The notes beneath the pieces are model-generated. The model did no database searches and was not told the origin of the DNA. It saw nothing but the letters and a program-made list of their open reading frames with translations. The position numbers and the translations under genes were made by a program. A stretch of 64,000 bases of DNA from NCBI GenBank assembly GCA_001442985.1, contig LDYB01000016.1, positions 62,001 to 126,000 of the forward strand, in the 5' to 3' direction. Source of the stretch: Armatimonadetes bacterium DC (GTDB lineage Bacteria > Armatimonadota > Fimbriimonadia > Fimbriimonadales > GBS-DC). Shown one piece after another: positions 2,544 to 44,174 of this stretch (positions are counted from its first letter, which is position 1; every line of letters begins with the position of its first letter).

Positions 2544-3644
2544 CTAACACCCACCGCCGAAGTTGAACAACACCGTCAACAAGTCCGCATCGTCCACAAC
2601 GCCGTCCTTGTTGATGTCCTCGGGGCGCGTATACCCTGTGCCCGGCGTGCCGAACGCAAACAGCACCGCCAGCAGGTCGGCGTCGTCCACACACCCGTCG
2701 CCGTTGGTGTCGCCCGTGCGCCAGGTATCCAGCAAAAACGCCTCGTAGCGCCCCGTCGCCGCGTTGTAGCCTCCACCCACGATGTAGCGCCCGTCGGGGC
2801 TGATGGCGCGGGCTCCATACAGCACCGAGCCGTTCGCGAGCAGGCTGGCGTAGGTGAGGTTCAGGTCTTCCATCCCGCCTGCCGCCGTCCAGCGAAAGGC
2901 GCGATACTGCCCGTTGGCGTTGAGTGCCTCGCCCACCACCACCGCGCCATCCGCCGAAACGCCAGAAGCCGCGCTATAATCGCCGCCGAGCGTGCCGAGG
3001 TCTTGCATCCCGGTCGCCGCCGTCCAGCGAAAGGCGCGAGCATAACCGCTGGCGTTTCTTGCCCAGCCCACCACCACCGCGCCGTCCGCCGAAACGCCAT
3101 TAGCCAAGCTCTGATTGCCGCCGAGCGTGCCGAGGTCTACCATCGTCCCGGTCGCCGCCGTCCAGCGAAAGGCGCGATCCTGACCGCTGGCGTTGCGTGC
3201 ATCGCCCACCACCACGCCGTCCGCCGAAACGCCAAAAGCCACGCTATGACTGCCGCCGAGCGTGCCGAGGTCTTGCATGCCGGTCGCCGCCGTCCAGCGA
3301 AAGGCGCGCCACTGACCGCTGGCGTTGTATGCATAGCCCACCACCACCGCGCCGTCCGCCGAAACGCCAGAAGCCGCGCTATAATCGCCGCCGAGCGCGC
3401 CGAGGTCTTGCATCCCGCCCGCTGGCGTCCAGCGAAAGGCGCGAAACTGCAGGCTGGCGTTGTGTGCCTCGCCCACCACCACCGCGCCATCCGCCGAAAC
3501 GCCAAAAGCCCGGCTCCCAACATAGCCAGGGAGCACGCCTAACCAGGTCAAACTCTGCGCCCAGCCTGCGGCGGTCGCCACAACCGACAACCCAACCGCG
3601 CTCATCAGCGCGTAGGTCCGCTTGAGTGTGTACCGCCTCCTCAT
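2544..3644 (-). CDS. Secreted HAF-repeat protein with C-terminal dockerin-like tail
   Basis: This 366-residue protein has a Sec signal peptide (about residues 1-29, ending AAGWAQ). It then has five to six repeats of about 48-50 residues of the type FGVSADGAVVVG...AFRWTAATGMQDLGTLGG, the 'extracellular repeat, HAF family' pattern expected to form a beta-propeller. Residues about 310-366 hold two EF-hand-like loops (GDTNGDGCVDDADLLAVLF and DINKDGVVDDADLLTVLF), dockerin-like, ending in FGGGC. One repeat (DGVVVGD) lacks a residue. The coding DNA is itself a tandem repeat of about 147 bp, so copy number may vary. RBS AAGGGGG lies before the ATG. The ligand is unknown. A close relative is at 34279. 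Confidence 0.8.
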   Translation of the reverse strand: MRRRYTLKRTYALMSAVGLSVVATAAGWAQSLTWLGVLPGYVGSRAFGVSADGAVVVGEAHNASLQFRAFRWTPAGGMQDLGALGGDYSAASGVSADGAVVVGYAYNASGQWRAFRWTAATGMQDLGTLGGSHSVAFGVSADGVVVGDARNASGQDRAFRWTAATGTMVDLGTLGGNQSLANGVSADGAVVVGWARNASGYARAFRWTAATGMQDLGTLGGDYSAASGVSADGAVVVGEALNANGQYRAFRWTAAGGMEDLNLTYASLLANGSVLYGARAISPDGRYIVGGGYNAATGRYEAFLLDTWRTGDTNGDGCVDDADLLAVLFAFGTPGTGYTRPEDINKDGVVDDADLLTVLFNFGGGC

Positions 3645-34148: not shown

Positions 34149-34258
34149 GTCCCGAAGGACCGCCCTTGCGCAAGGGATTGAGACTCACCTCACGCACAGG
34201 CAGGCGATACCGCTTGATTAACGTCCCGAAGGACCGCCCTTGCGCAAGGGATTGAGAC
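34149..34258 (+). CRISPR. Mini CRISPR array 1 (2 repeats, 1 spacer of 38 nt)
   Basis: Two identical 36-bp repeats at 34149-34184 and 34223-34258. Each starts GTCCCGAAGGAC, contains the palindrome CCCTTGCGCAAGGG, and ends ATTGAGAC, the usual 3' end of repeats that yields an 8-nt crRNA tag. No cas gene lies in the window. The second repeat ends 20 nt before the ATG of the next gene. Confidence 0.8.
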
Positions 34259-34278
34259 TTTGAGAAGGAGGAAACTTT

Positions 34279-35529
34279 ATGCGTACGAGGTGGAAGCATC
34301 TGGCTGGGCTTCTATGCGTGTGTGGCACTTTATGGATGGGTGCCTACGGACAGACGCTGATTTGGCTGGGGACGCTCACCCCGACAGGGGGAAGTAGTGC
34401 TGCCTCTGCCGTCTCCAACGATGGGATGATGATCGTGGGCGAAGCCAACGGCTACGCCACGGTCTGGAACCGAGCGACCAATACGGTGATTCAGGTATAC
34501 AACGGCTCGTCAGTACTTGTGGGAGTCTCTGCGGACGGAACCCGCGCCGTGGGTTTAAAGAACCCCGTCGACTACGTCTACCAACGCGCTTTTATGTGGC
34601 AGTCGCCCAACAACTTCGAGTGGTTGCCGCCAGCACCCGATAGATTCTGTTGGCCGGCGGACATCACCCCCTCAGGCTCCCACGCGGTAGGGAAGGCTCG
34701 TGCGTCTTCTGGCAACAATCTTCCCGCGCTCTGGGATTTGAACGCGCGACAGGTTCGTACCTACGCTGTGCCTGGAGATATGTATCATGGGGAAGCGTAC
34801 GGGATTTCGGATGACGCCCGTACAGTGGTCGCCTTCGGACACGGCAGTGGCTGGGGCTACAAAGGGGTTGTGTTCCGCTTGAACAGCGATGGCACCGTGG
34901 CTGCTTGGGCGTTCCTGAACCCCGTATTGGGGCACTACGGTTGCGTACCCCGCAAGGTCTCTGGCAACGGCGCAATCGCTGTCGGGAACACGGGCAACTT
35001 CTGGGGCGGTGGCTACTATCCTGTGATGTGGCGCGAGGCGAACAACTGGCAGCCAGAACAACTCGCACATTTGGGCGGTAATGCAGGAGAGGCTTTCGAT
35101 ATCCGCGGCGATATGATTGTGGGCTTTTCCGCCTTGCCGAACGGTCAGCGACGCGCCGTGCGTTGGCGGGTCTCCAGCGCCACTACTGAAGTAGAAGACC
35201 TGAACCAGACCTACGCGGCGTTGCTGAGTGATGGCTCGCGCCTTTCGCGAGCGAATGGCATCTCGGCAAACGGGCGTTATATTGTGGGTCAGGGCTACAA
35301 CGCCGCCACGGGGCGCGACGAAGCCTTTTTGCTGGATACCCAAGGTTGCGCCTCGCATAACGGCGATGTGGACGAGAACGGCTGCGTGGATGATGCCGAC
35401 CTGCTTGCCGTGCTGTTTGCCTTTGGGCAGTCGGGCGCGGATCTGGGTCGGGTGGATGTGAACTGCGACCAGGTAGTGGACGACGCGGACTTGCTGCAGG
35501 TGCTGTTTAGCTTCGGTAGTGGGTGTTAG
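34279..35529 (+). CDS. Secreted HAF-like protein with dockerin-like tail (paralogue of 2544-3644)
   Basis: 416 residues: a signal peptide (about 1-24, ending GAYGQ), propeller-like repeats with VGVSADGTRAVG and YGISDDARTVVA motifs, then GRYIVGQGYNAATGRDEAFLLDT, nearly the same as in the 2544 gene. The tail has two EF-hand-like loops (DVDENGCVDDADLLAVLF; DVNCDQVVDDADLLQVLF) and ends FGSGC. RBS GAAGGAGG. The gene is bracketed closely by mini CRISPR arrays 1 and 2 (20 nt before the ATG, 19 nt after the stop), as if it were a module carried between them. Ligand unknown. Confidence 0.78.
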   Translation: MRTRWKHLAGLLCVCGTLWMGAYGQTLIWLGTLTPTGGSSAASAVSNDGMMIVGEANGYATVWNRATNTVIQVYNGSSVLVGVSADGTRAVGLKNPVDYVYQRAFMWQSPNNFEWLPPAPDRFCWPADITPSGSHAVGKARASSGNNLPALWDLNARQVRTYAVPGDMYHGEAYGISDDARTVVAFGHGSGWGYKGVVFRLNSDGTVAAWAFLNPVLGHYGCVPRKVSGNGAIAVGNTGNFWGGGYYPVMWREANNWQPEQLAHLGGNAGEAFDIRGDMIVGFSALPNGQRRAVRWRVSSATTEVEDLNQTYAALLSDGSRLSRANGISANGRYIVGQGYNAATGRDEAFLLDTQGCASHNGDVDENGCVDDADLLAVLFAFGQSGADLGRVDVNCDQVVDDADLLQVLFSFGSGC

Positions 35530-35548
35530 GTGCGGGGTGTTTAGTTTT

Positions 35549-35656
35549 GTCCCGAAGGACCGCCCTTGCGCAAGGGATTGAGACTCAAACTCCAGATGCT
35601 CTATCGTGAACCTCATCATTGTCCCGAAGGACCGCCCTTGCGCAAGGGATTGAGAC
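35549..35656 (+). CRISPR. Mini CRISPR array 2 (2 repeats, 1 spacer of 36 nt)
   Basis: Perfect 36-bp repeats at 35549-35584 and 35621-35656, same orientation as array 1. The spacer at 35585-35620 has no visible match in the window. The right flank is the start of a methyltransferase-like gene that is cut at the repeat. Confidence 0.8.
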
Positions 35657-35742
35657 AGAAAGGTCAACGCGAACTGGTAGCCCTGCGTTTCCAGTTTCGC
35701 CATACGCTGCAGGCAATCGCCTTCCAGAACCTGCGTCTGCAA
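35657..35742 (-). pseudogene. 5' stub of a DNA methyltransferase-like gene, cut at CRISPR repeat
   Basis: On the minus strand a TTG opens MQTQVLEGDCLQRMAKLE followed by TQGYQFALTF, the pattern that precedes the DPPF/DPPY catalytic motif in N6-adenine or N4-cytosine methyltransferases (xLxGDCLxxMxxL...). The coding sequence runs straight into the repeat at 35656 before the catalytic motif. The rest of the gene is not found beyond the array. The assignment rests on about 28 residues, so it is tentative. Confidence 0.45.
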
Positions 35743-35966
35743 TATCGCGATGGAGATTTTTCATGGGAAGATGCCCTCCCAATCGTCGAAACAGCAGCGT
35801 TATTGGGTGGTTGCACCTATCCATTAAGCAGGAATCTCTCCACCCCGTGCGAATCTGAGTGTTAGCAAGGAGGGCGACGATGCCTCAGTGCGTGTGCATT
35901 AGTCATAGGCGCCTGTGCGGAGGCTTGGGAAGGCGCTCCGTTGTGCGTCTGCAGGCGATTTTGCAC

Positions 35967-35977
35967 GGGGGGGGGGG
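35967..35977 (+). repeat. Homopolymer tract G11 before regulator gene
   Basis: Eleven consecutive G bases lie 5 nt before the GTG start of the sigma-like gene. An upstream ATG at 35880 with a good RBS (AAGGAGG) opens a frame that would join the regulator frame if the tract had 10 or 13 G instead of 11. This is either a slippage-prone switch or a sequencing length error. Confidence 0.6.
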
Positions 35978-35982
35978 ACGCT

Positions 35983-36615
35983 GTGAACGACACCCTGCAC
36001 TTCCCCGACGAGCCGCCTCACGATCTACCGCCCGACCTGCAACAGGCAGTACGCCGCGCGCTCGCCGCCACCCACTGCTTGCGCCCACCACCCTGCTACG
36101 CCCCTACCTACTGGCGCGAGGAACGAGAAGCCATCGCAAACTACGCGGTGTGGCGGGCAGCCCAAGCCTACCACACCGAGATAGGGATCTCGCGGGAGGC
36201 GTTTGCCCAGATTTGTGCTTTCCGAGCGATTTATGGCGAGTGGCAGCGTTTATGGGAGCGGGACAAGGCGGTCGTGGCGATGCCTGTAGATGAGGAGACA
36301 GGGGAGGCGGTGGAGTTTGAGGATGAGGAGGCGCTGGAGGCGATCGGGGAACATCTGTTGTGTGGGCAGGTGCGCGAGGCGCTGGAGCGGTTGACGGCAG
36401 AGGAACGGCAGCTTTTGGAGTGGTACTTTGGCGAGGGGTTGAGTGAACGAGAGATAGCGAAGCGGGTGGGATGTTCACAGAAGACGGTACACAAGCGTTT
36501 GCAGTCGGCGTTGCGCCGCTTATGCGAGCGGTTGGGAGTAGCCGTGCCGCCCTATTGGGGAAAAAAGCGTCCAAAGGGTCAGCAAAAGGGTGGAAAAAGG
36601 GGCAAAAAAGGGTGA
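35983..36615 (+). CDS. Sigma-region-4-like transcription regulator (cassette A)
   Basis: About 210 residues. The C-terminal part REALERLTAEERQLLEWYF...LSEREIAKRVGCSQKTVHKRLQSALRRL is a sigma-70 region 4 helix-turn-helix. The middle (AAQAYHTEIGISREAFAQICAFRAIYGEWQRLWERDK) is a helical domain I do not recognise. The Lys/Gly-rich tail ends the protein. GTG 35983 is preceded by the G11 tract, which can act as SD; ATG 35880 is a frameshifted alternative. It is followed by a structured leader and two envelope genes. A frameshifted partial relative stands at 38281, before cassette B. It probably controls the genes beside it. Confidence 0.62.
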   Translation: MNDTLHFPDEPPHDLPPDLQQAVRRALAATHCLRPPPCYAPTYWREEREAIANYAVWRAAQAYHTEIGISREAFAQICAFRAIYGEWQRLWERDKAVVAMPVDEETGEAVEFEDEEALEAIGEHLLCGQVREALERLTAEERQLLEWYFGEGLSEREIAKRVGCSQKTVHKRLQSALRRLCERLGVAVPPYWGKKRPKGQQKGGKRGKKG

Positions 36616-36647
36616 AAAGGGGGTATCAAAACGGCACGGTTCGACTA

Positions 36648-36725
36648 CATGTATTAATAGCAGGCGGAGAGGGCAACCAGCAGCTGCCCCACCTGCAACA
36701 GACCAAACGATGGAGGAGGATGGAA
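36648..36725 (+). promoter_or_regulatory. Conserved leader A (CATGTATTAA box, hairpin, GGAGGA)
   Basis: The leader starts with CATGTATTAA (36648-36657). An imperfect hairpin follows (GCAGG...CCTGC enclosing GGGCA...TGCCC), then ACCAAACGATGG, GGAGGA and ATG. Leader B at 38588 has the same box, a hairpin at the same place, the same ACC/AACGATGG segment and a box-to-ATG distance that differs by one base (72 vs 73). The box could be a promoter -10 for the adjacent sigma-like factor. Confidence 0.6.
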
Positions 36726-37619
36726 ATGGGCAAAACATCTCGTGCGATCTGGATTCTTTGCGTGCTGCTTGGCTGCTTTCAGTGGGTAGCCAGTCAAGAG
36801 GAGATCTTGGATGAACAGGCTAAGCCCATCGAGATTGAGCTATCTGCTTCGCTCCCAGATCAGTGGCTGATTTTGCAACCAAGCGAAATCGTCACCTTTG
36901 TTCCGAATCCTGTCCTGAGTGGAATGTCGGAGTCCTCCACTTGGTATGCGCTAAACGGCGAGGTGCTGAGTGTATCCAGGGAAGGTGTTGTGTATCAAGC
37001 ACCTGATGGACAGGACGAAACCTTTGATGTGTTAATATGGCATAACCCTTCTTCAGGACAATGGGCTACAATAGGAATCACTCTTATATGCGAAGCCGAG
37101 ACGGTGAAGTTGGTCGCCGAGTCACTGGACGGGCAGGCTGTCTACCGGATACCCACGTCTAGCAATGCAGGCGTTCAGCTCTTTGCTCTGCCTGGTCAAG
37201 GTACTGGCTTCGAGATATGCTTGCGTGGGAGACCAGTAAATCCGCCGCCTGGGAGCACCTGTTCCGGACCATTCCGAACAACTCGCAGCAAATTCTTTAC
37301 TCGCTGTGGACCTTGGATGTTCAGGGGCACAATCATCGTTAATGCTGCTATCCAAGCAAAGGTACGCCGTGTATTCGGCATACACTTGGCAATAGGCGCG
37401 GTATTCCATGTATTTCAACGTGAATGCGTAGAAACCAAGTTAACCCTGCAGGATTGCTACGAGTGCCGTAATGGCGTACCAGTGTATGTGGGTACACGCG
37501 TATTTTACCGAACCAAAATGTGGATCGATACAACCCCTCACTGGGCTGTTCTTTTTTTTCCACCCCCAGCACCTATAATCCGCCATGGCTGTGTAAGTAG
37601 TGGCAATTGTCCTTGTTAG
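36726..37619 (+). CDS. Secreted Cys-containing protein with Ig-like segment (cassette A)
   Basis: 297 residues: a signal peptide (TSRAIWILCVLLGCFQWVAS), then an Ig-like beta region (LQPSEIVTFVPNPVLSG through GEVLSVSREGVVYQAPDGQDETFDVLIW). The C-terminal half is Cys-rich, with about ten cysteines including QDCYECRNGVPVY and a final GNCPC, suggesting disulfides outside the cell. ATG 36726 follows GGAGGAGGA at good distance; ATG 36720 is in frame. No family is recognised. Base use is more AT-rich than the housekeeping genes. It lies between the leader and a membrane-anchored protein. Confidence 0.6.
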   Translation: MGKTSRAIWILCVLLGCFQWVASQEEILDEQAKPIEIELSASLPDQWLILQPSEIVTFVPNPVLSGMSESSTWYALNGEVLSVSREGVVYQAPDGQDETFDVLIWHNPSSGQWATIGITLICEAETVKLVAESLDGQAVYRIPTSSNAGVQLFALPGQGTGFEICLRGRPVNPPPGSTCSGPFRTTRSKFFTRCGPWMFRGTIIVNAAIQAKVRRVFGIHLAIGAVFHVFQRECVETKLTLQDCYECRNGVPVYVGTRVFYRTKMWIDTTPHWAVLFFPPPAPIIRHGCVSSGNCPC

Positions 37620-37643
37620 GGTATCATAACCGGGGGTGTACAG

Positions 37644-38264
37644 ATGAGACACAAACGATTACGCATCTCTATCTTGCTTATCGGGCTTCTCGTCGTTGTG
37701 TTGAGCGGGTGGCTCCTCATCCGTACACCCGCTCCCACCGCTACAATCGGTTATTTCGGGGAAAACAGGTTCTTATGTGTCCGTCCCGGACAATTGATAT
37801 GTCTACGCTTCTCAAAACCTCTACCTTCAGGAATTGAGGAGTGGCGTAGATATTTGAAACAAATGGGTGCAGATGATGCAGTCGTTGATTATAATCCTGA
37901 AGCTATAGCGGCAGGTCAGTACTGGGCAGGGCTTGGCACCTCTGACTGGTGGTATGTTTCGGAGAAGGAGATCGTTTATCAGGTCCCAACATGGGCATAC
38001 GGGATATATCCTATTGAATTCCCAAGCCCTAAAAAATTAAAGTCTGGAGAAGGATTTGAATTTATGTTATTTATTATTGGTGATAAGGATTTGGATCGCA
38101 TCGTACAGCGACAGGAACGGTTGCCGCCCAGCGGCAAAATCCCATCTAAAGGGGCTATAGAGGTATACTATAGTGAGCCTTCACTCTGGACACGGTTTCG
38201 ATTCTGGCTTCACCAACACTATCGCCAACACCTGGCCCAAGCAACCGTAGGGGAAACCCAGTGA
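37644..38264 (+). CDS. Membrane-anchored protein of unknown function (cassette A)
   Basis: 206 residues with one N-terminal TM anchor (ISILLIGLLVVVLSGWLLI) and an outside domain: VRPGQLICLRFSKPLPSG, DWWYVSEKEIVYQVPTWAYGIYPIEFPSP and FMLFIIGDKDLDRIV. The C-terminal tail is basic/aromatic. RBS GGGGGTG. It lies 24 nt after the secreted protein and is likely co-expressed; the equivalent position in cassette B holds a truncated lipoprotein. AT-rich codons suggest recent transfer. No function is assigned. Confidence 0.55.
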   Translation: MRHKRLRISILLIGLLVVVLSGWLLIRTPAPTATIGYFGENRFLCVRPGQLICLRFSKPLPSGIEEWRRYLKQMGADDAVVDYNPEAIAAGQYWAGLGTSDWWYVSEKEIVYQVPTWAYGIYPIEFPSPKKLKSGEGFEFMLFIIGDKDLDRIVQRQERLPPSGKIPSKGAIEVYYSEPSLWTRFRFWLHQHYRQHLAQATVGETQ

Positions 38265-38280
38265 ACGCAGTGCCTGCTCA

Positions 38281-38570
38281 GTGGAAGGGGAGACAGGCGA
38301 AGAAGTGGAAATTGAGTTGGGGATGCGGCGGCGCAGCCAGCAGTGTTGGAGGTATGGGAGCGGGTGTTTTGTGCGCAGGTGTGGGAGCGTTTATCGCCTG
38401 ATTTGGACGAGAAGGACTGGGCGATTTTGGCAGGTTTGGCGGAGGGGAGAACCCAGTCGGAGATAGCGCAGGAATTAGGCATCAGTCAGCCAGCGGTGAG
38501 CCAGCGTTTGCAGAAGATAAGGCGTTTGGCGCAGGAGATTTTGGGAGAATTGAGGGACGAATGCTTATAA
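38281..38570 (+). pseudogene. Frameshifted remnant of a sigma-like regulator (cassette B)
   Basis: In one frame VEGETGEEVEIEL corresponds to VDEETGEAVEFED of regulator A. After a frame change near 38320 the product continues VLEVWERVFCAQVWERLSPDLDEKDWAILAGL...SEIAQELGISQPAVSQRLQKIRRLAQEI, a region-4 helix-turn-helix. The N-terminal half is missing. A GTG at 38343 could still allow a 75-residue DNA-binding protein. Given the matching place before leader B, this is read as a decayed relative of the gene at 35983. Confidence 0.55.
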
Positions 38571-38587
38571 TTTTTGCGGCTGGATGG

Positions 38588-38666
38588 CATGTATTAAGTA
38601 GGAGGCGGAAAGGGTGGAAAACCTTCCGCCTGCCAAGAAACCAAAACGATGGGGGGGAGGATGGAG
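38588..38666 (+). promoter_or_regulatory. Conserved leader B (CATGTATTAA box, hairpin, GGGGAGG)
   Basis: CATGTATTAA at 38588-38597, then a hairpin with a perfect 8-bp stem (AGGCGGAA / TTCCGCCT), then ACCAAAACGATGG, GGGGAGG and ATG. It is equivalent to leader A, while the hairpin sequence differs and its pairing is kept. Confidence 0.6.
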
Positions 38667-39362
38667 ATGAGGCGACGGTACAGTGGCTGGCTGAGTGGGC
38701 TGGTTGTGATGGCTTGGGCTTTAGCGTGTTGGAGCGTGTGCTGGGCAGAAGCGGACCCGATGGCGCTCTATCGGCACATTGCCACGCTCAGTGCGAACGG
38801 GATGAGAGTAGGCGTTAGAATGGTAAATTCTAAAAACAGTTCCAATTCTACGGAAAAATACGCGACTCTCACAGGTTGTACCAGTGGAGGTGAATGTACC
38901 AACTACTCAGATTGTACACCTGGTAGATACTGTACATCTGATGGATGTACCAGTGATAAGTGTACAGGTTTTGACAAGTGTACCAGTGACAAGCAGTGTA
39001 CAAAAAACGATCCATGCACTCGTGGATATGCGTGTACCTACGGTCAATGGTGTACAAGTGATGCCTGGTGTACTCGCGGGGACAATTGTACGGCGAGTGA
39101 TAACTGCACTCGAGGAGATGGATGCACAGGTGGCTGGGCTTGCACTGCAGGTGACGGCTGCACCAGAAGTGATATGTGTGCCTCCGGGCGCGGATGCACC
39201 GCAAGCAATGCTTGCACAAAAGGTCGTAATCCTGGAGACCCATCGCGATATTGCACATCTGGCGCTTCATGCACCGCCAGAAGAGGGGGGATTAACTGTC
39301 CGGATATTCCATCATCAACTTTCTGGGTTTATCTAAGAGAGCCAGACAAGGGTGATTCATGA
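38667..39362 (+). CDS. Secreted Cys-Thr hexapeptide-repeat protein (predicted beta-solenoid)
   Basis: 231 residues: a signal peptide (YSGWLSGLVVMAWALACWSVCWA), a short linker, then residues 71-207 made of about 22 units C-T-x-x-x-x (examples CTSDKQ, CTKNDP, CTRGYA, CTYGQW, CTASDN), with a few 5-residue units and one 13-residue insert. The Cys i/i+6 and Thr i+1 spacing equals half of the 12-residue coil of the Tenebrio antifreeze protein, a disulfide-braced beta-solenoid; the fold is inferred. Cys and Thr codons vary (TGT/TGC; ACA/ACC/ACT), so the amino acids are what is kept. ATG 38667 suits the SD spacing. The stop overlaps the next ATG (ATGA). Confidence 0.72.
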   Translation: MRRRYSGWLSGLVVMAWALACWSVCWAEADPMALYRHIATLSANGMRVGVRMVNSKNSSNSTEKYATLTGCTSGGECTNYSDCTPGRYCTSDGCTSDKCTGFDKCTSDKQCTKNDPCTRGYACTYGQWCTSDAWCTRGDNCTASDNCTRGDGCTGGWACTAGDGCTRSDMCASGRGCTASNACTKGRNPGDPSRYCTSGASCTARRGGINCPDIPSSTFWVYLREPDKGDS

Positions 39363-39571
39363 AAATGCGATGGATGACACTGGTGAGGCGCTTCCTCCTA
39401 ATACTGTCATGTTTCACTTTGATACTGTCGTGCTTCCCTCAAGTGGAGACGCGAACAGTTCGCTTCGAGCCGAACTTTTACTCATTTGACGAGATTGCTC
39501 AGCGTCTCTCGACAGAAACTTTTCAGGTGCGCTGTTCCGTCCCGAAGGACCGCCCTTGCGCAAGGGATTGA
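39359..39571 (+). pseudogene. Lipoprotein gene cut by CRISPR repeat (cassette B)
   Basis: The frame starts at an ATG overlapping the stop of the Cys-Thr protein and encodes a lipoprotein-type signal (LVRRFLLILSCFTLILSC) followed by VRFEPNFYSFDEIAQRL. At 39539 it enters the 36-bp CRISPR repeat and ends there at an in-frame TGA, adding [10 protein letters not shown]. The native C-terminus is absent. Its place matches the anchored protein of cassette A. The original length is unknown. Confidence 0.6.
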
Positions 39572-39642
39572 GACGCGTTGGAGATATTTGACATGCGCCT
39601 GTAGCAGTCCCGAAGGACCGCCCTTGCGCAAGGGATTGAGAC
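39539..39642 (+). CRISPR. Mini CRISPR array 3 (2 repeats, 1 spacer of 32 nt)
   Basis: Perfect repeats at 39539-39574 and 39607-39642, same strand as the others. The left flank is the truncated lipoprotein frame. The right flank is non-coding. Confidence 0.8.
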
Positions 39643-39991
39643 TAACTTCGTCCTTACGGGGCATAGCGTCGGCGTCTTACCAAAAAGTATTGATAACACA
39701 GAAAGTGGCTTCAGCCATTTCAAACGCCTTCATTTACGCAGGAACTATTCATCACGCGCAGATGCTGTGTGGGGTACAATCGTGCAGCAATGAAAACGCT
39801 GACACCCCGCAACTGAACAGAGATTAATCTGGGTTAGCGCTGACCGCCTCAGTGGCGAGCCGTGTTTCGGGGGACGTGTGTATGCGCCTGATTGCGCTGG
39901 ATGACGCCAAGCCAGCGCCATGCCTGCCTGCAGGCATTCCCGCAGCTCACTCTTAGGTGAACCCTCTGCTCGTGGTAAAATACCGATTACC
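39643..39991. other. Intergenic stretch without recognisable gene
   Basis: The 349 bp between mini CRISPR 3 and the endonuclease gene show only short, unsupported frames. A GGTAAAAT at 39974-39981 lies 10 nt before the endonuclease ATG and may be its -10 element. Confidence 0.5.
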
Positions 39992-41311
39992 ATGCACGGC
40001 AGAGCGGAACAGGGAGCAAGAAACACTTCTCGCTCACAGAGAAACCCACTGCCCGAATGTCTGCTCGGACAATGCGACTGCGCAGTGGCTTCCGAGTTAC
40101 ACTCGATTTTCGAAGCATCTAAAGCGGTGGATGAAGTAAGACCTGATCTTACGAAGCTGGTTTTGCGATTGTTTGACTGCTTACAATACCTAATGCAAAA
40201 GGGACTGATATTAGATGCTGACGAGCTGGGGATAGCGCTGGGCGCGGTTTTCGACTTCTGTCTTAGCCTCCTCTACGCAGAGCGGTGCACTGCTACTCAG
40301 TGGTTGTATTGTCCCCGTGAACCTGCAGCAAGCTTCTACACTTATGTCAAGAGTTGTCCGCGATGTGGTCGAGTCGAGAACATACCCCCTGTGGCTCACA
40401 AACCTCCCTCAGATACCATAGGCAGATACACAACTCTCTGCCTAACTGCAATTCTCGCAGAGATTTTTCGGAGAACACGGAATGGCTGGAACGCTCGCAT
40501 CATAACTACGGCTCGCGGTGAAGTCGATGTAATTCTATTCAGCCCTCAGAAGGTCGTCCTCTGTGAAGTCAAAGCATCTCCTCTTGTTGCTTTCCCACTA
40601 TACGCTGTCAATGAAGAACCGCTCGATACTGAGGTCGAGGGCGAGGTTCGAATTGTTGATACGCATAGAGCAACGGATATAACGAACTGGAAAAGACGCC
40701 CAATTTCCATCTTCCTGTTTGGCATCGACCGCTCGATTCCACTTCGTGCGAATCGCAAAGGCGACAAGGTCACTTTCATCCCCGCGTTGCTTCGTAGGAA
40801 ACGAGGCGATCTTGCAGAAGATATGCAAGAGGTGATTAATTTGTGGAAGCAGATGCTAAGCGGCTACAGCGACCGTTGGGTGCGCGAGGGGCAGCAACAC
40901 CTGCGATGGTTCACTTTCGGCTGTGGCAGCGGCGTGGATGATTCGAAAAACGCTCCTGGACTCGATCGAACCGATGATATCAAAAAAGGGCTGTACCAGT
41001 CTCTCAAACTTACTGCCAGATACCGTACCGCATGCTCTCGACAGCGCGTCAAGATAGGGCTACTGTCCAACATTCATCCCGCAATCCACTACTCCGAGTA
41101 TCTTCAAGACTTCGAAGACGCTGTATGGACGCACGCAAACTTACTCGAAAATATAGAATCGCTCCCTGAATGGAAGCGAGTTAGGCTATCTGATTTGTCG
41201 CCTTTCTACGATATGCTGTTCACTCTCACCAAATCTTGGTTTCGTGATGAAGAGTTAGAGGCTGCTCTCAGCTTACAGACACTTCATAAGGCTTTGGGAG
41301 GAAAGCGATGA
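39992..41311 (+). CDS. PD-(D/E)xK restriction endonuclease (type II, partner of the next gene)
   Basis: 439 residues. The nuclease core is visible as ARGEVDVILFSPQKVVLCEVKAS: Asp, a hydrophobic strand, then ExK. A CPREP...CPRCG segment upstream may bind zinc. The gene overlaps a DNA methyltransferase gene by 4 nt, the standard layout of a restriction-modification pair, so it is called an endonuclease mainly on motif plus context. The site recognised is unknown. ATG 39992 is chosen for the upstream GGTAAAAT and loss of similarity-poor N-terminal residues; an earlier ATG at 39920 is open. The gene is AT-richer than the flanking core genes. Confidence 0.65.
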   Translation: MHGRAEQGARNTSRSQRNPLPECLLGQCDCAVASELHSIFEASKAVDEVRPDLTKLVLRLFDCLQYLMQKGLILDADELGIALGAVFDFCLSLLYAERCTATQWLYCPREPAASFYTYVKSCPRCGRVENIPPVAHKPPSDTIGRYTTLCLTAILAEIFRRTRNGWNARIITTARGEVDVILFSPQKVVLCEVKASPLVAFPLYAVNEEPLDTEVEGEVRIVDTHRATDITNWKRRPISIFLFGIDRSIPLRANRKGDKVTFIPALLRRKRGDLAEDMQEVINLWKQMLSGYSDRWVREGQQHLRWFTFGCGSGVDDSKNAPGLDRTDDIKKGLYQSLKLTARYRTACSRQRVKIGLLSNIHPAIHYSEYLQDFEDAVWTHANLLENIESLPEWKRVRLSDLSPFYDMLFTLTKSWFRDEELEAALSLQTLHKALGGKR

Positions 41312-43086
41312 CAAACGCACCTGACTACTGGAAACTCCTGTTCAAACTGCGCTCTAACATCACATTAGACGGAGACCTTGAACTTGCGGAGCGCGAGTTG
41401 CGTGCGTTAGTGCAGTGCCCTATTGAGCCAATCGGAGAGGATTTCTTATCTTCATGGCAGCAAGCAGGGTGGGTGCTGCCTAAAGACGTCGCGACTCATC
41501 GTTGTGGAGTAGTGGGCTATCTCTGTCATACCAGACCAATCGAACTGAATCTGCTATTTAGGCGTCTCTCGTTTTGCGAGCAGGTCTTCGGAATTGCTCC
41601 CGACAACGAGTCAACACGCGAGCAACTTGCGCAGCTGCCCGACTCGCTCGTTCGTGTTCGACAAGTGAATGGACAGATCGCTTTTATGTTCGTACCCTTC
41701 AACGCAATCGCGGAGTGGTCAGATGTCGTGGCGCGACGAGCAAGCTCGCCCAAAGAAACGGGCGTAATGTTGGATTACCTTTGCAACGCCCTTGTCGATG
41801 AGGTGCCTGTGGAGCTGCCGCAAGCGGCGCGCTCGATAATTAGCACGAAACAGACAACAGGGCATCTGTTCCACGGCTTGCATGTCTACAAGGCAAAGTT
41901 CTTTCCCCGTATGGCGCGAGCGTTCTTGAACCTGTGCGAAGGTGCAACGGTACTTGACCCTTTTGCAGGAAGCGGCACTGCACTGGTAGAAGCAGCGGTG
42001 ATGGGCATTCCCGCGATTGGCGTGGATATCGATCCCCTGTCGGTTGCAATCGCACGCGCCAAGGCGCAGCTCCTCTTCGACGACGGAGCTATTGCTGAAG
42101 CTATCCCTAATGCGCTCGCGCGATTAGACAACTCAGCAAAGGGGCAAGGAAGCCTGTTCGAGATTGCCGAAACACACGCGCTCTACAGTGTAACACCTAC
42201 CTTCTTGCGGCGTCGCGTGCCTGAACCCATCCTACGCGAGGTCGAGACCGACGTCGCTGATATTCTGAGCGCCCTCCGCGATTTACCGCCGTGCAGCCCG
42301 TTGCACATCGCTTTGAGCGACGCTCTTTCGCGCAAATTCAAATTCCGTTTTCTGGGGCTGGGGTACGGACGATTTTCGCTTACAATCCAGCCACGCCGCC
42401 TACGCCAGATGTTCGTGGAAAACTTGCTTTACTTAGCGCGCGCGTTGGCAGTCTGGCAGTGGCTTCGGCAGCGTACTGGCGTTGTACCTGCTCCTATCAC
42501 TGTATTGCACGGAGACGCCCGCCAGCTGCCGCTGGAAGACGAGAGCGTCGATTGCGTCGTCACCAGTCCACCATACATGCCCGCTTCGTCAGGACGCGAA
42601 AGTTACCTCAAGAGCAAAGCGTTTGGAATGACCGCGCTCGGGCTAATCGCGCCAGACGCTGTAGATGCTGTAGAAGCAGAGCAAATCGGCTCCATCCAGC
42701 GCGCGGAGACGATACACAATCTGCCTCAGTCTGCTCAGGAAGTCGTCCTTTGGATGCAAAGCGATCCCACCCGCTGCGTCAAAGCCGCCGCAACCGCCAG
42801 CTATTTCGCCGATCTGCGCGAATCGCTACGCGAGATACGGCGCGTGCTGAAACCGCAAGGCAAGTGTGCTTTTGTCGTTGCTCGCCAACATGTGTTCTAC
42901 CGCTACCGCTCGCGCGAGATTGTGCGCCTCGTGGAAAGCGCAGACATCACGGCGGACTTGGCAGTCCAGGCAGGGCTCCGCATGCTGGAGCAGATTCATG
43001 TGGAACTGCAGAAACAGAACTCAGTCGCCCGCCCGCGCTCACTCGACTCGTATTACGAAACGATTGTGCTGCTCCAGAAGGCATGA
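41308..43086 (+). CDS. DNA methyltransferase (N4-cytosine/N6-adenine type) of an R-M pair
   Basis: 592 residues. The SAM-binding motif [20 protein letters not shown] lies near residue 217 and the catalytic [18 protein letters not shown] near 419; motif I thus precedes motif IV. The SPPY form is common in N4-cytosine enzymes. A pre-motif [19 protein letters not shown] and a large insert between motifs (probable target recognition) complete it. It modifies the host sites against the endonuclease encoded upstream, which it overlaps by 4 nt (ATGA). Confidence 0.82.
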
Positions 43087-43098
43087 AGCCCTTCATGG

Positions 43099-43104
43099 TA
43101 CAAT
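43099..43104 (+). promoter_or_regulatory. -10 element (TACAAT) of the leuS stub
   Basis: GGTACAAT ends 11 nt before the leuS ATG and 18 nt after the methyltransferase stop. No SD sequence is present, so the transcript would be almost leaderless. Confidence 0.5.
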
Positions 43105-43115
43105 ATCCCCCGACT

Positions 43116-43460
43116 ATGCAGGAACACTACGACCCGAAAACCATCGAACCCAAGTGGCAACAACGCTGGCAGGAGGCGCGGCTGTTTAGAACCGAAGAAG
43201 ACCCCAGCAAGCCCAAGTGCTACGTGCTGGAGTTCTTCCCCTACCCGTCGGGCGACGGGCTGAGCGTCGGGCACTGCCGCAACTACATCCCCGCCGATAC
43301 CCTCGCCCGCTATATGCGCATGCGCGGCTACAACGTGCTGCACCCGATGGGCTGGGACGCCTTCGGATTGCCCGCCGAAAACGAAGCCATCAACAAAGGC
43401 TCCCACCCCAAACACACCGTGCCCCGCGTCCCGAAGGACCGCCCTTGCGCAAGGGATTGA
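43116..43460 (+). pseudogene. leuS: 5' stub of leucyl-tRNA synthetase, cut at CRISPR repeat
   Basis: The first about 104 residues are a clear LeuRS N-terminus: [19 protein letters not shown], the HIGH-type motif [16 protein letters not shown], and [16 protein letters not shown] full enzyme is about 800-850 residues. At 43428 the frame enters the CRISPR repeat and stops at its in-frame TGA, adding the same [10 protein letters not shown] tail as at 39571. No other LeuRS segment occurs in the window. Since LeuRS is essential, either another full copy exists or this junction is an assembly chimera. Confidence 0.85.
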
Positions 43461-43542
43461 GACAGTGCCATATACTCGCGCGATACATCAAGAGCCGTTG
43501 CTGTGTGTCCCGAAAGACCGCCCTTGCGCAAGGGATTGGGCT
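43428..43542 (+). CRISPR. Mini CRISPR array 4 (1 perfect + 1 degenerate repeat, spacer of 43 nt)
   Basis: A perfect repeat at 43428-43463. The second copy at 43507-43542 has a G-to-A change in its first stem and a degraded 3' end (ATTGGGCT instead of ATTGAGAC), as expected for the last repeat at the trailer end. This supports the plus orientation of all arrays. Confidence 0.78.
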
Positions 43543-43661: not shown

Positions 43662-44174
43662 CTCTGTCGCAAAGACCGCAGATTCAGGAAACAGGGCGCG
43701 GGAACCGCGTCCGTACGGGAATCGGTAGGGGCATGGTCCCCGTGCCCGCGAACCAAACAGGATGCAGAAACCGCATCCATACGCGCATGGGTAGGGGCAC
43801 GGTTCCCGTGCCTGTGATCCGAGCAGGACGCGGGAACCGCGTCCGTACGGGCACGGTCCCCGTGCCCGCGAGCCAAACAGGGCGCAGAAACCGCGTCCGT
43901 ACGGGCACGGTCCCCGTGCCCGCGAGCCAAACAGGACGCAGAAACCGCATCTGTACGGGCATCAGGAGGGGCACAGTCCCCGTGCCCGCGAGCCAAACAG
44001 GACGCGGGAACCGCGTCCGTACGGGAATCGGTAGGGGCATGGTCCCCGTGCCCGCGAACCAAAACAGGATGCAGAAACCGCATCCATACGCGCATGGGTA
44101 GGGGCACGGTTCCCGTGTCCTACGCCTCGAAAAGAACCGCGCCGCGAGGTGGAATTCGAATCCTTGCGACAGAG
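43662..44174. mobile_element. MITE-like element A with internal hairpin array
   Basis: Terminal inverted repeats CTCTGTCGCAAAGAC (43662-43676) and ATCCTTGCGACAGAG (44160-44174). Between them lie about seven alternating hairpins of two kinds, ACGCGGGAACCGCGT and GGGCACGGTCCCCGTGCCC, with sequence variants that keep base pairing. No transposase is inside. A shorter relative at 61094-61234 has the same ends. Long open frames cross it on both strands but encode only the repeat. The bases from 44175 to 44298 show no gene. Confidence 0.7.

Follow-up and report, generated by a model that had tools for sequence, protein, structure and literature searches.

Gene A of the window (the whole 64,000-nucleotide stretch analysed here, part of contig C16 of the 2.85 Mb, 26-contig genome G000) encodes an exported protein whose central part is a run of Cys-Thr-led six-residue units. 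Because its relatives in two other genomes head a four-gene cassette, A-B-C-D, we hold with high confidence, for family and operon alike, that these CT proteins form a genuine, little-known family. Judged from sequence, A-B-C-D is an undescribed cell-envelope cassette found in some Fimbriimonadales-like Armatimonadota. The host lineage is probably heat-loving, and from its gene content we place G000 among these Fimbriimonadales-like Armatimonadota. Features of the window that bear on the cassette are collected in Table 1.

Table 1. Window features in and around the gene A region.
Feature	Position	Strand	Basis or remark
3882-bp segment between two CRISPR-like repeats	35657..39538		holds gene A, the upstream genes and most of the B stub ORF
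ECF-like sigma factor	35941..36615	+	PF08281, 7.5e-13
Exported Cys-containing protein	36720..37619	+	homologue in G002:C52, same order
Exported/membrane-anchored protein	37644..38264	+	homologue at end of G002:C52
ORF with sigma-70 region-4 HTH, left over from a dispersed sigma/leader cassette	38343..38570	+	PF04545, 6.6e-07
Leader common to other sigma-linked exported-protein genes	38571..38666	+	sequence comparison
Gene A, exported CT-hexapeptide protein, 231 aa	38667..39362	+	ORF translation, homologues
Signal peptide, residues 1-27 (putative cleavage ...CWA/EADPM)	38667..38747	+	hydrophobic segment 9-27
N-terminal non-repeat segment, conserved HIAxLSxxGMxxG	38748..38876	+	invariant residues, shuffle z
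22 Cys-led units, residues 71-207	38877..39287	+	repeat count, spacing
C-terminal tail	39288..39359	+	lacks the TM helix found in both G002 copies
Gene B stub, first ~57 residues homologous to ~600-aa B	39359..39571	+	reads into CRISPR-like repeat

An exported Cys-Thr repeat protein and its relatives

The start of gene A is best sited at the ATG at 38667, behind a GGAGG; the other in-frame ATGs lie at 38661 and 38649. An earlier note, made from the window sequence by itself, had described a secreted protein with about 22 Cys-Thr-x4 units at residues 71-207 written in varied codons, and this description holds: an N-terminal export signal is present, and unit-starting Cys at residues 71-202 lead 22 units, 21 of them CT and one CA. 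Cys-to-Cys spacing is 6, except for two 5s in succession, one 13 and a final 9, and there are 17 instances of CTxxxxC, where 20,000 permutations of the protein's own residues average 0.49 and never exceed 5. The composition is hydrophilic and Gly-rich, and the 25 Cys include 2 in the signal peptide and 22 that lead units, with 23 in the mature form. Codons within the repeat are varied (TGT 12 and TGC 9 for Cys, four codons for Thr) and Tandem Repeats Finder reported no DNA array at this position, which together argue for maintenance of the pattern in the protein and against a recent expansion of an 18-bp unit. Adjacent Cys and Thr in about 20 short units could also suit a multi-core RiPP precursor, in which the units would become (methyl)lanthionine or thioether cores; we considered this and rejected it as having almost no likelihood, since the signal peptide is Sec-type and no maturase-like family was found among the operon proteins scanned.

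Matches to gene A at E <= 0.001 among the 113 genomes of the order that were searched lie only in G000, G002 and G039, that is, homologues occur in 2 of the 112 other genomes, one from the same family as G000 (G002) and one from a different family of the same order (G039). Two tandem CT genes are present in G002 (27 and 39 CT), and G039 has one (27 CT) together with a fragment. All CT-type homologues share an IAxLSxxGM segment as well as Cys-Thr pairs; H, I, A, L, S, G, M and G of the N-terminal segment are invariant in the family alignment, and N-terminal similarity across the CT-type proteins stands at z 4.6-27 versus shuffles (7-27 for the window protein versus G002a, G002b and G039a). The first 51 residues of the window protein are 86% identical to the G002 homologue. 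Homologues in G002 and G039 keep the hexapeptide spacing of Cys and Thr, the point on which the earlier note had staked its reading in advance. Nearly every repeat Cys is followed by Thr or Ser and the remaining positions are variable, with a unit closer to C-T-x-G-x-x: position 4 is small (Gly, Ser or Ala) in 68%, 73%, 76% and 89% of units, one value for each of four family members. The strict six-residue register is sustained for runs of up to 15 units.

Searches of phages and plasmids by tblastn returned only low-identity matches (20-28%). Five-unit TGYAC scans of genome and viral contigs gave, among the matches listed, mainly simple-repeat DNA out of frame; a phage hexapeptide protein (L260) and a Bacteroidetes His/Cys repeat protein (L076), both also among the matches listed, bear a superficial likeness to CT proteins and were set aside.

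Operon partners and the sigma/leader module

Both G002 and G039 have gene A at the head of an operon with B, C and D directly downstream, encoding proteins of about 600, 800 and 830 aa. With D as query, B-C-D also came to light in G061 and G096, where the first gene encodes a different exported Cys-rich protein (38 and 25 mature Cys) with irregular Cys spacing and few CT pairs. The N-termini of these two first-gene proteins are alike (z 6.6), and a shuffle comparison gave no significant similarity between them and the CT type. Because the CTx4 pattern is missing and N-terminal similarity falls short of significance, the correspondence of A across the four operons is positional only. Exported Cys-rich heads of B-C-D operons without CTx4 regularity were recorded at L284 (11984-12940) and L285 (4584-5978).

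Alignments of D span the whole protein at 31-34% identity and show an invariant SxDKxGG, C is 30-35% identical between operons, and B just 19-23%. Pfam assigns DUF4350/ABC_transp_aux domains (GATase-like, GldG-related) to C and D, with DUF4350 scores of 51.3 and 50.7 bits for C and 32.5 and 38.8 bits for D versus a curated cut-off of 30.4. In their GATase-like domains, which follow N-terminal halves with several TM segments, C and D are homologous to each other (hhalign 99.7%). GldG/ABC_transp_aux/DUF4350 proteins likewise carry GATase-like domains beside TM helices; several of the C and D proteins differ from them in having two Pfam matches, no GldF-like ABC partner was seen in the operon, and the NCBIfam GldG model reaches C and D at E 0.003-0.2 at best. 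B starts with a short motif, YTFEEIARRLS..., which we take to be reminiscent of secretin/TonB STN domains; a Pfam scan of B did not confirm an STN domain. Outside the class, adjacent C and D homologues occur in G259 with no Cys-rich gene visible, an incomplete D in G175 and one isolated domain in G247.

Two features recall the exosortase/PEP-CTERM system: the G096 A protein ends in PEEP-TM-RGK, and D has an N-terminal multi-TM region. The identification of D as an exosortase was nevertheless not supported, given an hhalign probability of 1.8% versus 19 exosortases, the presence of SxDKxGG and the absence of a CSG motif. Exosortases do occur in the phylum, and the true exosortase is a separate gene.

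Besides its position upstream of gene A, the sigma/leader module is found at two or more places on contig C7 of G000, in G009 and on a number of G002 contigs; in several of these cases an exported Cys-rich protein other than A, with 10-13 Cys, is encoded nearby. The CT gene is thus not alone: the lineage has several exported Cys-rich genes linked to a sigma module. The shared module (G000:C7, G002:C38, G009:C211) also speaks for a different role, in which the CT protein would be secreted as an antagonist or signal and would count among the lineage's diverse sigma-linked exported Cys-rich proteins. We judge this very unlikely, given the length, high repetitiveness and frequent TM anchor of the CT proteins, the lack of any immunity-like gene among those identified, and the two large membrane proteins in B-C-D. 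The genes for sigma factor, Cys protein, 206-aa homologue and CT protein follow in the same order across the break between G002 contigs C52 and C31, from which we infer that these contigs adjoin. Dispersed sigma plus leader cassettes were recorded at L326 (on G000:C7), L327, L328, L330 and window positions 38281-38720, and several G002 contigs end in such cassettes.

In the window the cassette consists of A and the B stub only, and a genome search did not find D in the rest of G000. Together with the lack of a C-terminal TM helix, this indicates that the window copy of A is probably an orphan or remnant; G002 and G039 are therefore the basis for arguments about function. The earlier note had mentioned neither the operon nor the truncated, CRISPR-flanked segment that holds the gene.

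Fold and possible role of the CT proteins

Beetle antifreeze proteins are the obvious comparison. The Tenebrio consensus is TCTxSxNCxxAx, with disulfides C2-C8 (PMC8038014), and the likeness to this type pointed out by the earlier note is borne out in so far as CT proteins also have Cys every six residues and Thr after Cys. Tenebrio/Dendroides-type proteins (1EZG/1L1I) further share with them a small residue at position 4, export and tandem units; they differ in that the CT unit is 6, the genes lie in a bacterial operon and there are up to 46 CT/CS units per protein. The proposal that two units make one coil finds no signal in the sequence: CT proteins have no 12-residue period, with unit similarity at z -0.2 for lag 2, whereas Tenebrio antifreeze protein in the same test gives +1.9 at lag 2 and +3.3 at lag 4. 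The TCT ice face is absent from the window protein (0/21), occurs 0-1 times in homologues and 4 times in TmAFP, so the earlier doubt about ice binding was right. Pfam antifreeze models gave no match to the window protein up to E 10, and its sequence match to 1EZG (E 1.6) is not significant. Having neither TCT, nor the period, nor a significant profile or sequence match, the CT proteins were rejected as members of the antifreeze families and as antifreezes. Left-handed beta-helix hexapeptide proteins share a six-residue unit with Gly, but their aliphatic i position is polar in CT proteins, where Cys and Thr are the fixed residues; with hydrophobics at 27% or less at every position of the CT unit and no Pfam family match, [LIV]GxxxX units were likewise rejected.

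Each of the five genomes tested has a gene for the disulfide-forming VKOR, as compared with 3 of 14 control genomes, which makes disulfide formation in exported proteins plausible. The export signal, VKOR and the conserved Cys-Thr spacing are consistent with the disulfide bracing suggested in the earlier note; a sequence signal for its two-unit coil is the part that did not appear.

Our preferred reading, which we hold tentatively and at slightly less than an even chance, is that A forms a regular disulfide-braced envelope rod or spacer handled by B-C-D, a version with 12-residue coils included. After export, the Cys of A would pair, most simply between neighbouring units, and the paired protein would be a narrow, very stable rod or spacer. 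Either the rod's own C-terminal helix or B-C-D may hold it to the membrane, with C and D as membrane assembly or anchoring partners, and the Thr column beside the Cys may serve adhesion or packing instead of ice binding. A C-terminal TM helix is present in four of the six full-length A proteins (G002a, G002b and those of G096 and G061); its absence from the proteins of the window and G039 counts against this reading, as do the odd Cys number of the mature window protein, the missing 12-residue period, the lack of a confident AlphaFold2 fold and the purely positional correspondence of A across the four operons.

One special case of the rod, whose probability accordingly overlaps with that of the rod as a whole, is a Tenebrio-like right-handed beta-helix that would have arisen convergently, with two CTxxxx units per 12-residue coil, an intra-coil disulfide and Thr on both sides. 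The six-residue Cys spacing, the Thr after Cys and the small position 4 fit the beetle consensus (PMC8038014), and the adjacent 5-5 spacings (in the window protein, twice in G002a, and in G039a) could each be one shortened coil of 10 residues. We nevertheless consider such a helix doubtful. The lag-2 period is absent, no protein taken singly shows a significant 5-5 pairing (P 0.09-1.0), AlphaFold2 gives no confident fold from shallow alignments, and a turn of 18 residues remains an alternative.

Low AlphaFold2 confidence (pLDDT 31.2 with a four-homologue alignment and 38.3 with eight rows in repeat register, both alignments being shallow) is a verdict neither for nor against a solenoid, and it is also what might be expected if the CT region, instead of forming a regular solenoid, were an extended and flexible Cys-rich linker or a mesh, whose intermolecular disulfides would build an envelope or extracellular layer. 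The hydrophilic, Gly-rich composition, the irregular Cys spacing of the operon counterparts in G061 and G096 and the odd Cys number of the window protein point the same way. However, the strict register and the small position 4 suggest packing constraints, and we find a linker or mesh rather unlikely.

If the rod reading is true, bacteria possess an extremely regular Cys-braced repeat protein that would offer an ultra-stable natural scaffold and allow convergence with the beetle antifreeze folds to be tested. That CT proteins constitute a new bacterial class of disulfide-laddered hexapeptide rods, which arose independently of the beetle antifreeze proteins and are exported and mounted on the cell by a B-C-D membrane machine dedicated to them and equipped with GATase-like domains, is a bolder proposition that we regard as improbable. 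The conserved A-B-C-D cassette is a membrane system still to be characterised, for which A is a defined candidate substrate, and the role of its DUF4350/GATase-like proteins becomes testable.

A CRISPR-like setting for the window copy

The window copy of gene A lies within a CRISPR-like array that spans positions 34149-43541. Its 36-bp repeat has seven exact copies genome-wide, all at 34149-43463, with a degenerate copy near 43506, and spacers of normal length (38, 36, 32 and 42 nt) alternate with segments of 1290, 3882 and 3785 bp. GC content is 53.0% in the 3882-bp segment and 54.5% in the 3785-bp segment, versus 61-64% outside. Three genes are truncated precisely where a segment meets a repeat. 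At its left end the 3882-bp segment breaks off within a methyltransferase gene, an intact copy of which is on G002:C38, and at its right end within B, where the stub enters the repeat at 39539; the 3785-bp segment ends in leuS after about 110 codons (43105-43427), with an intact leuS on C14. This leuS fragment is 83% identical to the genome's own C14 copy and 90-91% identical to genomes of genus g5, and is largely collinear with G011. The inserts reflect either giant-spacer capture of long fragments derived from relatives or an assembly chimera.

Within the third insert (39920-43086), a protein of unknown family precedes an N6/N4 DNA methyltransferase in a restriction-modification-like arrangement, which adjoins leuS in G011. 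A GC-rich tandem repeat with a 66/54-bp unit follows directly after the array (43689-44142), and at 2863-3510 the window carries a 135-bp tandem repeat within a dockerin-tailed protein.
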